From Letharia columbiana (Eukaryota; Ascomycota; Lecanoromycetes; Lecanorales; Parmeliaceae), in assembly GCF_014066305.1 (NCBI RefSeq), contig NW_023501060.1, positions 248,001 to 312,000 of the forward strand: DNA of 64,000 bases, read 5' to 3'. Shown here in pieces: positions 26,235 through 44,220 of this stretch. Under the pieces are notes generated by a model. The model saw nothing but the letters and a program-made list of their open reading frames with translations. It did not search any database and had not been told where the DNA came from. Within the stretch, counting starts at the first letter, position 1. Each line of letters begins with the position of its first letter. A program made the position numbers and the translations under genes.

Positions 26235-28460
26235 AGTAAAGGCCCATGAATTAAATTCATGGAGTTGGATTTTTCATTTTTCTAAGTCAAATGGAGTTGG
26301 ATTTTTCTAAGTCAAATCGAATTTTAGCCCTAGCCCTAAGTCAAATCGAACTCTGATCGCTTGCTGTGCGTTTTTGACCTACTTCCACCACTACAAAATT
26401 GATTTAATCTATGTGGTATACAGGCATATATGTGCGGAGAGAGGTACGCTAAGGCCTGATTGATCCGTAATAATTGCCCACAAAAAATAGAGAAAGGCCA
26501 TGTTCTTATGGCAAGAAGTATCGAAATACCGGAAAGAAATGGAGACAACGTGCTAATTAGTGGTGTGAATCTCACAATATCTCCTGCCGCAGTGAAATTT
26601 TTCGAATAATGAAATAGCTGTAGACATCGGATGGTTTTAATTCGTTTAAATATGCATTGGAGAGCATATGACGTGGGATCTTGGAGAGCTGAGCCGTGTT
26701 CTTGGTGCTGGGGGCCTTGTTGCCGCTTGGTTTCTCCGCAGTGTTCTCCGCATTTGCCTGTTGTAGTTCCTCCTCTTGCTCCTCCTCTTGTAGAGTATCA
26801 GACTGAGTGGCTAGCTGAGTGGCTGACTGAGTGGATGACTGATATGACGTGGGATCTTGGAGAGCTGAGCCGTGTTCTTGACGATGGTGGCCTTGTTGCC
26901 GCTTGGTTTCTCCGCAGTGTTCTCCGCATTTGCCTGTTGTAGTTTCTTCTCTTGCTCCTTCTCTTGTAGAGTATCAGACTGAGTGGCTAGCTGAGTGGCT
27001 GACTGAGTGGATGACTGATATGACGTGGGATCTTGGAGAGCTGAGCCGTGTTCTTGACGATGGTGGCCTTGTTGCCGCTTGGTTTCTCCGCAGTGTTCTC
27101 CGCATTTGCCTGTTGTAGTTCCTCCTCTTACTCCTTAATGCAGTGGGGATGACAGGCTAAGTTGCAGTGGTGTTCTCCGCTTGCTGAGTGATGATTTGAT
27201 GTGGAACCGTGGAGAGCATGATGTGGGATCTTGGAGAGCTGAGCCGTGTTCTTGGTGCTGGGGGCCTTGTTGCCGCTTGGTTTCTCCGCAGTGTTCTCCG
27301 CATTTGCCTGTTGTAGTTCCTCCTCTTGCTCCTCCTCTTGTAGAGTATTAGACTGAGTGGCTAGCTGAGTGGCTGACTGAGTGGATGACTGATATGACGT
27401 GGGATCTTGGAGAGCTGAGCCGTGTTCTTGACGATGGTGGCCTTGTTGCCGCTTGGTTTCTCCGCAGTGTTCTCCGCATTTGCCTGTTGTAGTTCCTCCT
27501 CTTGCTCCTCAATGCAGTGGGGATGATAGGCCAAGTTGCAGTGGTGTTCTCCGTTTGCTGAGTGATGATTTGATGTGGAACCGTGGAGAGCATATGACGT
27601 GGGATCTTGGAGAGCTGAGCCGTGTTCTTGACGATGGTGGCCTTGTTGCCGCTTGGTTTCTCCGTAGTGTTCTCCGTAGTGTTCTCCGCAGTGTTCTCCG
27701 CATTTGCCTGTTGTAGTTCCTCCTCTTGCTCCTCCTCTTATAGAGTATCAGACTGAGTGGCTAGCTGAGTAGGGGCTCTTTTTGAGGGCTTTTCAACGCG
27801 TTTATGAGCAGTAGTAGGTAGCTGTTAGGCTCGCTTGCGGCCTCGATTGCCAGTAGTAGCGGATTCGCCGAGGGGTAGCCTGAGAACGATGTTCAGGATC
27901 TAATACGCGTTGAGAGGTTTTAAAATAGGGTGATGAAGAATGGGTAGGGGAGGAAGACGCGTCTTGGGAGGGCGTCAGTAGGGGCTCTAAGAGGCGGGTA
28001 AAGGGGTATACATGCCTTAGACGTCGAGTAACCTTTGGGCGAGGAGTACCGAAGACGATTGTGTTTATATTGGTGGAATTGGTAGAATTAATAGAATTGA
28101 TAGAATGGTGGAAGAAGAATGGTTACACAAACAGGTGGAAGGATTATTATCCGATCCCGGACGCGTCTGGTGTAACTATCATTGAATGTCCATTTAATTC
28201 ATTAATAGTAGGCCAAACTTCATAATTTTTACAGCGTTAGAAAGCGCAAAGCGAGCTTTACAATTTGAGGAATTATGAAGTAACTGTAAGTATCGCAAGC
28301 TGAGTACTTCAAAGTGTAAAACTTCTACACACAAATTTTTGATGAGGGAGCTCGGGAGGGCTAGCGGGCTAACTCAGCCGGTCTAACTAAAGAGCGTAGT
28401 AACCCTGAATTGATGATTGGCTGCACATACAAATTCAAGGTTTCCAAGCTCAGCCCTACC
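26235..28460. mobile_element. GC-normal insertion nested in the RIP-mutated element
   Basis: Base composition returns to about half GC between two RIP-decayed halves of the Gypsy element, so this DNA arrived after RIP or escaped it. The left end has a palindrome (CCATGAATT/AAATTCATGG near 26,251). The right part on the minus strand has a Pro/Ser/Arg-rich frame (TPRPKVTRRLRHVYPFTRLL near 28,000) and a basic stretch (NRGRKRA) leading into the minisatellite frame (Gln/Glu-rich). This resembles the C-terminal tail of a DNA-transposon protein, but no catalytic domain is visible. The class is not assigned. Confidence 0.5.
26664..27770. repeat. Minisatellite, about 176-bp unit, six copies with two linker types
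   Basis: The core motif ACGTGGGATCTTGG (or ATGTGGGATC) starts at 26671, 26847, 27023, 27221, 27397 and 27597. Spacing is 176 bp with linker type A (GAGTGGCTAGCTGAGTGG) and 198-200 bp with linker type B (GTGATGATTTGATGTGG). The linker order is A, A, B, A, B, A (partial). Copies 1 and 4 share a GGTGCTGGGGG variant; the others carry GACGATGGTGG. The sixth copy has an extra short triplication (TCCGTAGTGTTC). Confidence 0.9.
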
Positions 28461-32690: not shown

Positions 32691-32764
32691 AAAAATATTA
32701 AAAATTTATAAGAAAGACAAAAAAAAAAAAATATTTTTTTAAAATTAAAAATTTTTTTAAAAGA

Positions 32765-32803
<39 letters not shown>

Positions 32804-32904
32804 AAAAAAATAAATTTTTAAAAAAATAAAAAAAATAAAAAAAAAAAAAAAAAAAAAAAAAAATAAATAAAAAAAAAAAAAAAAAAAAAAAAAAATAAAA
32901 AAAT

Positions 32905-32983
<79 letters not shown>
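32691..32983. repeat. Extreme A-rich low-complexity block
   Basis: Nearly 290 bp of almost only A with scattered T, ending in an uninterrupted run of more than 60 A. Then AATTTTTCGC leads into normal sequence. It is adjacent to the retrotransposon LTR. It could be an assembly artefact. Confidence 0.8.
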
Positions 32984-41922: not shown

Positions 41923-42825
41923 TCATGGGAATATCGGGCCTTTAGACCCGGCGCCACCCATAGGAGCGCGCTCGGTTTCGGAGGCATCGTCTGAGTTGCT
42001 GTCGATGAGAGAGCAGCCGCTGTATGATCTGGCCTCCAGGCCAGGAGATTCGATCGTCTCCTTGAGCCATTTCCAGAAACCGCGCTTGGCTTTGAAGCCA
42101 CCCTCCGTGCGTTTTACATTGAGACCTTCGTAGACAGCCTTCAAATCAGTCAAGGTCGCCGCGAGATCAGGACCGAGTGCTTCTTCAAAAGATGTCTGAA
42201 AAGGTTCCCTGTCAGCTCTATCCTTCCTGGCGAAGGACAAAACTTACGGAGTTGAAGACGGGAGATCTGATCTTCAGACCGGGGGATTCGAATGCATCCT
42301 TGAGCCACTTCCAAAAGTCGCGCTTGGCTTTGATGCCGCTCTCCGTGCGTTTCACATCGAGGCTATCGTAGACAGCTTTCAAATCAGTCAAGGTCGCAAT
42401 GAGATCAGGACCGAGTGCTTCGTCATAGGATGTCTGAAACAATTTTGTGTCAGCTCTGTTGTTCTTCACACGGGTCAGACCTTACAGAGTTGGAGACGGG
42501 AGATCTAATCTTCAGACCAGGAGATTCAATTGCATCCTTGAGCCACTTCCAAAAACCGCGCTTGGCTATTGAGGAACCACTAGGTTTGGGTTCATTGACA
42601 CTGTCATAGACCGCCTTCAATTTGGTCAAGGCCGCGACTGGATCGGAACCCAGGGTATTATTAGCTGGCGTCTGTGGGGTCATGGTGTCAGCCGTGGCCT
42701 TTTCCGGTAGGGACTGGACTTACAAAGGGAGGAGCGCGGGCTTCTAGGGCAGCTGTCGAGAAGGGTGGGAGCGGTCCGGCCGCTGCGAGGGTGGAGAGCG
42801 CTAGGAGGACGAGGGAGAGACGCAT
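41923..42825 (-). CDS. Secreted tandem-repeat precursor with Kex2-like sites
   Basis: The model is complement(join(41923..42195,42248..42433,42486..42671,42724..42825)), encoding 248 aa. Exon 1 encodes a signal peptide (MRLSLVLLALSTLAAAG) and a short pro-region ending LEARAPPF. Each of exons 2, 3 and 4 starts with one copy of a 62-residue repeat; exons 2 and 3 are exactly 186 bp, and all three introns are exactly 52 bp, phase 0, each with GCTGACA as branch site. Every repeat contains (A)LGxDxxATLTxLKAVY, then a dibasic site AKR at repeat positions 36-38, followed by (G/D)FWKWLKDAxESPGL. Repeats 2 and 3 also have VKR at 27-29. Repeat 3 is followed by a Ser/Asp/Gly-rich tail. Secretion and Kex2-type processing would release similar Trp-rich amphipathic peptides. 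No modifying enzyme gene is adjacent. Function is inferred, not known. Confidence 0.85.
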
Positions 42826-44220
42826 TTTGATGTTGAATGGAGGTCTGGGTATGTAATGGTGAATGTATGTACTAGGTATCAGACCTGCTGATGACGAATG
42901 AAATTGTGCAAAGAAAGTGTGAAGTATGTGTGTGTATGTACAAATAGGCGCTGGTTATCAGACCTGCTGATACTGAAGAAAATGTATTGAACAAAAGAAG
43001 GAATGATGAAAGTATTCTGATGGTGGAGAAAAAAAAGATGAAGAGAAAATGTCTAGAGAAGATATATCGATTCTTCCGAAGCTTGGACCAAGTCCCACGT
43101 GACTTGGCGCCAGCGGGTTTCATCTGCTACTGACATGGCTATTCTTGGTTCGCGATCCGGGATCGGTAAACGCCTATCAAATATCAGTGTCGAACTTTGA
43201 GTATGGCAATCTTGTTTCACAGCTCGCGCGAGGACGTTTGAAGCTCTCGATGTAGGCGCGCACTGGTCGATGAGAAATATGGGATTGTGAGGGGAGGGGG
43301 AATGGAGAGGATGAAGTGGCGAAGTCGTCGTGGCATGACTTGCGCGATTGGCCCTCATCCTCTCCGTTCAGGCATGCATGGATATGTTTTTTGATTCTTT
43401 GCCAACTAGCTTCAATATTATCACAATAGCGATAAGCCATCCATTACCAGCGAAGGCATCATACAAGAGACTGGCAGTCCGAGCGATACTTCATTAGGGA
43501 CGAGATCGTGCTATCTTAAATTTCAAGTAAGCACGAACAGTGGAGGCGGAAGAGCGGCCCAGCTCCAGGAGTACATATCGGCACCAACCATCATCAGATC
43601 CACTGTTGATTGGTGCAGTCGAGTTGTCGCCGCGCCTAGCCTTCTTTGTTGATGACACCGAAGTTGACGTTTCGTTGTATGTCGTAATACTAAGGTCTCT
43701 TTTTGTTGGTCTGAGTTCTTGAATGATTCTGGCATAACGAGCGATTGATTTTAGTCCGATACTACCGCTATCACGTGACAATAAAGAGACTAAATCCTAC
43801 AATCAACGTCATATTCTGAAGGTATTAGATCGTGCGAGCGGTTCTGATATAGAAGATAACCTCGTATATCTAAGTTTGTTTAAGCTTTAAGGAGGAGATA
43901 CTAAGGCAGGCCGGGTCATCTCTCGATTCACATTGCGAGCCTCATCTTGGATTGTGCCAACGGTCGGCTCGGTTTGATCACACGCTTTCAATCACGTCAA
44001 CCAGGCAAAATCGACGAGAGGATGAACACTTACAGCTGTCCTTCCAATCTCGCGGATCAGACCCATTAGTACTTCAAGACCCATGAGTGCTTCATGGTGT
44101 TTAGAACTCGCGTCCGGCTTCCTTTCTGAGGGATTGATGGAGGCGATGTTGTGATAACTAGCAATAAGTCATTGCAAGAGGAAGGCAGGAGGTACAGGGG
44201 ATACTTACTTGGTAGACGAC
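42826..44220. other. Region without a supported gene
   Basis: Minus-strand frames at 43,177-43,440 and 43,494-43,781 (up to 95 aa) have no domains or splice support. The first 200 bp are the promoter side of the tandem-repeat precursor and contain a duplicated 'GGT(T)ATCAGACCTGCTGAT' word at 42,875 and 42,952. Confidence 0.4.

Follow-up and report, generated by a model that had tools for sequence, protein, structure and literature searches.

The question raised by this locus is what is made by a gene whose protein carries three similar repeats, each opening a new exon, and how that product would be processed. The window is a stretch of 64,000 nucleotides from the lichen fungus Letharia columbiana, and coordinates refer to it unless another contig is named; the contig of the gene is called C25 below.

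Gene structure and repeat units

The gene model has four exons on the minus strand, running from an ATG at 42825 to a stop at 41923 and coding for a protein of 248 residues. An exon for the signal peptide and pro-segment is followed by three units of 62 residues, with one exon start per unit. The processing of the 18-residue peptides listed here is predicted from in-silico cutting.

42724..42825 (-): exon 1, 102 nt; signal peptide (by eye) and short pro-segment, ending LEAR-APPF
42736..42747 (-): LEAR in the leader, a possible LxxR-type Kex2 site from the sequence and in-silico cutting (motif as in PMC8528282)
42672..42723 (-): intron 1, 52 nt, phase 0
42486..42671 (-): exon 2, 186 nt; repeat unit 1 (62 aa)
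42504..42557 (-): predicted 18-residue peptide 1, GFWKWLKDAIESPGLKIR, from AKR to a cut after LKIR
42434..42485 (-): intron 2, 52 nt, phase 0
42248..42433 (-): exon 3, 186 nt; repeat unit 2 (62 aa)
42347..42355 (-): VKR, second dibasic site of unit 2, from the sequence and in-silico cutting
42266..42319 (-): predicted 18-residue peptide 2, DFWKWLKDAFESPGLKIR
42196..42247 (-): intron 3, 52 nt, phase 0
41923..42195 (-): exon 4, 273 nt including the stop; repeat unit 3 (first 186 nt) and a non-repeated C-terminal tail
42109..42117 (-): VKR, second dibasic site of unit 3, from the sequence and in-silico cutting
42028..42081 (-): predicted 18-residue peptide 3, GFWKWLKETIESPGLEAR

A putative signal peptide is recognised by eye as MR, a hydrophobic run and AAA-G. 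All three introns begin with GTAAG(T/G), end with CAG, and have the word GCTGAC at an identical offset; 52 is not a multiple of three, so that retention of an intron would shift the frame. The first-pass annotation of this DNA had described a signal peptide with three 62-residue repeats each opening an exon, two exons of 186 bp (exons 2 and 3), and three 52-bp introns sharing a branch word. All of this is borne out by the gene model. The observation of a repeat precursor gene is thus confirmed, while the interpretation placed on it is partly supported.

A repeat finder gave a 238-nt repeat in three copies, spaced by 238 and 238 nt, and Tandem Repeats Finder gave a matching period. At the protein level the units share 38 (units 1 and 2), 33 (units 1 and 3) and 44 (units 2 and 3) of 62 residues; the corresponding exons share 127 (exons 2 and 3), 122 (exons 2 and 4) and 147 (exons 3 and 4) of 186 nucleotides. 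Searches of the genome (52.2 Mb, 161 contigs) with DNA and with protein, in which the best candidates were scored, revealed the repeat nowhere else.

The first-pass annotation had proposed that the 238-bp exon and intron were duplicated as a block, and for this the introns are the informative part. Introns 2 and 3 are identical at 34 of 52 positions (p 1e-4 by shuffling with the splice and branch words held fixed). Under the same shuffling, introns 1 and 2 and introns 1 and 3 agree at 28 of 52 each, which is marginal (p 0.048 and 0.056, respectively). In a control drawn from the window, the score of introns 2 and 3 was reached by one of 120 pairs and the other two scores by three of 120; the 120 pairs come from 19 candidate introns less the three of the gene, and the control is weak, as overlapping candidates were kept. 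An earlier intron control had three background pairs only. The identity of introns 2 and 3 indicates that the younger duplication copied exon and intron together, and block copying in this last duplication is well supported by the sequences. For the older duplication, which involves intron 1, the equal length and the GCTGAC offset are suggestive of block copying. The copy number would have grown by tandem duplication of the 238-bp exon-plus-intron unit, with phase and frame preserved. A repeat unit that comprises an exon and its intron suggests a route by which the number of peptide copies can rise without loss of frame.

Predicted processing

The best explanation of the gene, to which we give a probability of about 0.57, is a secreted multi-copy precursor that would be cut by Kex2 into unmodified Trp-rich peptides. 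As had been noted in the first-pass annotation, AKR stands directly before a Trp-rich amphipathic stretch, [G/D]FWKWLK, and it does so in all three units. The protein contains KR five times, against 0.9 expected from its composition, and KK, RK and RR not at all; VKR is present in units 2 and 3 and absent from unit 1. LKIR, LKIR and LEAR end 18 residues past the AKR of units 1, 2 and 3, respectively, and fit the extended L-x-x-R motif of Kex2, of which the leader also has an example (LEAR). The dibasic site is the canonical Kex2 motif and LxxR an extended one (PMC8528282), and a peptide of a Kex2-processed repeat precursor (KEP) that ends at a single Arg is known (PMC9769878). The first-pass annotation had mentioned neither the LxxR and VKR sites nor the genes, described below, that share the leader.

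Cutting in silico at both KR and LxxR yields GFWKWLKDAIESPGLKIR, DFWKWLKDAFESPGLKIR and GFWKWLKETIESPGLEAR, each lying within one exon; the third copy has LEAR alone behind it and no dibasic site downstream. With the terminal R included, the three 18-mers have net charges of +2, +1 and 0, and the acidic stretch that follows each has a net charge of -2 to -3. The suggestion that the peptides are antimicrobial is a weak guess given a predicted net charge of 0 to +2. The 12 best 11-residue helical hydrophobic moments of the whole protein are all in windows over FWKWLK, and the moments of the three 12-mers are matched by 3-4% of shuffles. A structure model of unit 2 has helices at 8-24 and 31-49, at low confidence (mean pLDDT 66, from three sequences only). 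For the processing enzyme, the genome has a candidate in a single P-domain match of the proprotein-convertase type, which covers 58 of 86 positions of that domain.

The pathway we propose would begin with removal of the N-terminus by signal peptidase. Kex2 in the Golgi would then cut after the AKR of each of the three units, and probably also at the L-x-x-R that follows 18 residues on in all three, and a Kex1-like carboxypeptidase would trim the basic ends. The products would be three short peptides, nearly the same in sequence, rich in Trp, amphipathic and helical, secreted without cross-linking, with the acidic stretch behind each serving as a spacer or pro-piece. Their likeliest target would be the membrane or a receptor of another cell.

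Conservation and alternative explanations

Each unit exon has a single open frame on the coding strand; its two other frames there contain 3 to 7 stops. By the NG86 method, dN is lower than dS in all three whole-unit pairs (0.29/1.09, 0.41/0.67 and 0.19/0.46), the test being based on just three copies of 62 codons. For codons 34-58, which span AKR, FWKWLK and RSP, the values are 0.09/0.48, 0.18/0.69 and 0.19/0.84; for codons 1-33 they are 0.12/0.28 and 0.55/0.79, and undefined for exons 2 and 3. The ratio is thus lower in codons 34-58 than in codons 1-33, at 0.23 v 0.43 for exons 3 and 4 and 0.27 v 0.69 for exons 2 and 4. None of the three units departs from the others at AKR, at FWKWLK or at the L and R of LxxR.

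A curated Pfam search of the protein listed ten families up to E 10, none of them above its own cut-off. The best was DUF6574, at 25.2 bits against a cut-off of 27.1, in three stretches; it was rejected as being below the cut-off and spread over the repeat copies. An Rfam scan of the window gave no match, and neither did a promoter and terminator scan, whose models are bacterial and not applicable to a fungus.

The most serious competitor, though unlikely, is that Kex2 cuts at the dibasic KR only. Cutting in silico in this way gives fragments of 56, 53, 9, 53, 9 and 52 residues, that is, two 53-residue peptides of two helices each, two 9-residue spacers and the end pieces. Each 53-mer would combine the FWKWLK helix with the acidic helix of the next unit, across an exon junction. 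It is the canonical motif that is used here (PMC8528282), and the acidic helix is conserved as well, columns 15-22 being invariant bar one; on the other side, all three units retain both the L and the R of LxxR, and this site bounds an 18-mer within one exon. Quite unlikely too is that the protein is a secreted repeat protein of a cell-wall, surface or effector-like kind, active intact or after loss of one pro-domain, in which the KR sites are incidental. In line with this, conservation extends over the whole unit, including LTxLKAVY, and not every comparison has the FWKWLK block as its most conserved part. Exons 3 and 4 differ by 8 amino-acid changes in the 25 codons of the block and by only 7 in the 33 codons 1-33, whereas in the other two exon pairs the block is the tightest part (4/25 and 7/25, against 19/33 and 19/33 outside). 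Effectors that are processed by removal of a pro-domain at KR or LxxR are, moreover, common (PMC8528282). What speaks against an intact protein is that KR is about five-fold over expectation, and that AKR is invariant at one place.

The remaining two explanations are much weaker. Alpha-type mating pheromone precursors of filamentous ascomycetes have the pattern W-C...G-Q.C. The gene resembles such a precursor in its signal peptide, repeats and Kex2-type sites, but its repeated peptide has neither Cys nor this pattern, and a pheromone is very improbable. A genome search for the pattern gave three matches (two for a control pattern), none of them precursor-like, and did not locate the pheromone gene. 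Barely credible, finally, is that there is no gene at all and that the open frames arise by chance across a tandem repeat. One frame of exon 3 is open on the antisense strand too, no Pfam family exceeds its cut-off, and a PDB search gave one match, at E 1.9; against this stand the phase-0 splice sites at every unit edge, the excess of dS over dN in all three whole-unit comparisons, and the similar leader in another gene.

Comparison with known precursors

One published definition of KEPs has three parts: a signal peptide, at least four fragments on cutting at KR/RR, and at least three similar fragments, the C-terminal one excluded (PMC6339444). The gene gives six fragments, or five without the C-terminal one. 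Among these, counted by reading, are two 53-mers and two 9-mers, with the third copy inside the C-terminal fragment; there are not three similar fragments because dibasic cutting bounds only two copies on both sides. An alternative definition has at least three tandem repeats of at least 8 aa between KR/KK/RK/RR, none longer than 100 aa (PMC7329392). By this the gene is borderline, with three 62-aa units each having AKR, the last copy having no dibasic site behind it. Given one fragment rule that agrees, one that does not, and one borderline case, we call the gene KEP-like rather than a proven KEP. A Kex2-processed repeat precursor, as the first-pass annotation had it, is still the best reading of the protein.

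The gene shares with KEPs (PMC6339444, PMC7329392) a putative signal peptide (here by eye), units of fewer than 100 residues, and KR sites in register. It differs in that no more than two copies are flanked by dibasic sites at both ends, every unit has an LxxR-type site and forms an exon by itself, the introns that go with the units are equal in length, and the leader is common to genes with different cargo.

In its predicted manner of working, the closest analogue is Ece1p, the candidalysin precursor of Candida, for which cleavage by Kex2 after Arg and trimming by Kex1 have been shown (PMC5784256). Both are single preproproteins of similar length (271 residues for Ece1p and 248 here); no relation in sequence is claimed. 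The three peptides of the present gene are near copies of one another, unlike those of Ece1p, and they are predicted only. Precursors with one pro-domain likewise have KR and LxxR after the signal peptide, with the difference that their cargo is one protein and here it is repeated. Frog antimicrobial peptide precursors are reportedly described in terms of a 'conserved signal peptide' and a 'hypervariable mature' part (PMC7106915, PMC6887943). They share with the genes described below a conserved leader with different cargo, but they are animal genes and the likeness is one of layout only.

Fungal KEPs number 7878, of which 2560 stand alone (PMC7329392), and their functions are described as largely unknown (PMC9769878). 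Exact-word searches of the open-access literature for the FWKWLK core, for exon duplication mentioned together with Kex2, and for introns and repeats mentioned together with it gave no match. Exon-plus-intron units in Kex2 precursors are not claimed to be undescribed, and any claim of novelty is confined to this genome. Expression, cleavage and activity of the peptides are predictions from sequence.

A leader shared with other genes

The leader recurs in three more genes of the genome, one on contig C19 and, probably, two in tandem on contig C8 (C8a and C8b).

C8:283197-283852: tandem leader genes, starts 494 nt apart

Aligned with exon 1, the C19 leader has 75% DNA identity in 125 columns that start at the ATG and extend about 14 nt beyond the exon; it was matched in genome-wide DNA searches at E 4.8e-14 and 2.4e-14. 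As read here, the C19 gene has a phase-0 intron behind the leader and a single Cys-containing cargo peptide after LLKR. In C8b, RR near the end precedes a short Trp-rich peptide that has two Cys; in C8a the frame stops after 53 codons.

The C8 leaders were found by protein search, at E 0.0095 and 0.0136. Leader protein scores are 58-86 in five of the six family pairs and 32 for C19 with C8b, compared with at most 35 for 12 decoy starts, a weak control because the starts were picked mechanically at ATGs and two pairs of them overlap. The pair of C19 and C8b thus scores below the best decoy (35), and is joined only via the other members. In pairwise DNA comparison the likeness lies in the leader, with about 34 nt before the ATG added in the C19/C8b alignment; a 206-nt identity of C8a and C8b is an overlap of the extracts, and the pairwise E-values are for one short subject. 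Searched against the genome, the C8a leader DNA matched only itself, and the C19 leader DNA matched itself and the gene on C25 but not C8. Because the genome-wide DNA searches gave no link, that of the C8 leaders rests on pairwise alignment, protein E-values and decoys, from which the C8 genes probably belong to the leader family. A leader pattern had 18 matches in the genome (10 for a control pattern), of which four are exact by construction, the pattern having been built from the four genes. The other 14, with two mismatches each, are not signal-peptide-like by eye and were set aside.

The cargoes have no persuasive likeness to the repeat. Shuffling gave uncorrected p values of 0.022, 0.057 and 0.209 for the C19 cargo against units 1, 2 and 3; a KRDF/KRDV likeness to the repeat is visible and is not claimed as homology. 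No likeness to units 1, 2 and 3 was found for the cargo of C8b (p 0.265, 0.405 and 0.647) or of C8a (p 0.532, 0.324 and 0.507), nor between the cargoes of C19 and C8b (p 0.813). A common leader with different cargo may reflect reuse of a leader exon or fast divergence of the cargo. We tentatively suggest, at less than even odds, that these genes form a small family in fungi, whose single kind of leader exon (signal peptide and pro-segment ending near AR-AP) has come to precede secreted cargo peptides of unrelated sequence. In one member, exon-plus-intron block duplication would then have multiplied the cargo, each exon being one processable peptide module. A leader of this kind would help to find precursors that repeat-based searches miss, because in the C19 and C8 relatives, on our reading, the cargo is present once.

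Genomic surroundings

UstYa (DUF3328) has 35 matching pieces in the genome, with none on C25, C19 or C8, and so the UstYa gene near the precursor by which ustiloxin-type RiPPs are recognised is not found here. The earlier remark that no UstY-like gene lies near the precursor can be extended to the whole 733-kb contig C25 (0 of 35). Dikaritin and epichloecyclin RiPP precursors are likewise secreted, cut by Kex2 and multicore (PMC9233826, PMC7329392); the present gene differs in the lack of a UstYa match on its contig and of Tyr in its predicted 18-residue cores. Ten pieces chosen from 35.3-59.1 kb were searched against Pfam, and five had matches: a mitochondrial carrier, a thiolase, an ankyrin/PHD piece, a second PHD piece and a DUF7580 piece. 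No biosynthetic cluster was seen among these ten neighbouring pieces, and no tyrosinase among their Pfam matches. Around the C8 and C19 genes, five of eight pieces had a Pfam match (amidohydrolase, IBR, fungal transcription factor, NACHT and ankyrin).

It is worth adding that a 15-mer, ATCAGCAGGTCTGAT, whose arms ATCAG and CTGAT are complementary, is present twice upstream of the gene.

42878..42892 (-): ATCAGCAGGTCTGAT, copy 1, about 53 nt before the ATG
42957..42971 (-): ATCAGCAGGTCTGAT, copy 2, about 132 nt before the ATG

The genome has three exact copies of it, these two included, and 11 matches with at most one mismatch, compared with three for a control pattern; it may be a regulatory site. 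The same upstream region (42872-42983) has a 33-nt stretch in two copies 79 nt apart, which contains the 15-mer.

Elsewhere in the window there is a stretch of about 224 nt of almost pure A (32759-32982), and strong tandem repeats at 26666-27676, with periods of 176 and 374 nt and 12-nt subrepeats. On another contig, C7:26657-26811 is a copy of 5.8S rDNA that is AT-rich and looks degraded, presumably as a result of repeat-induced point mutation.
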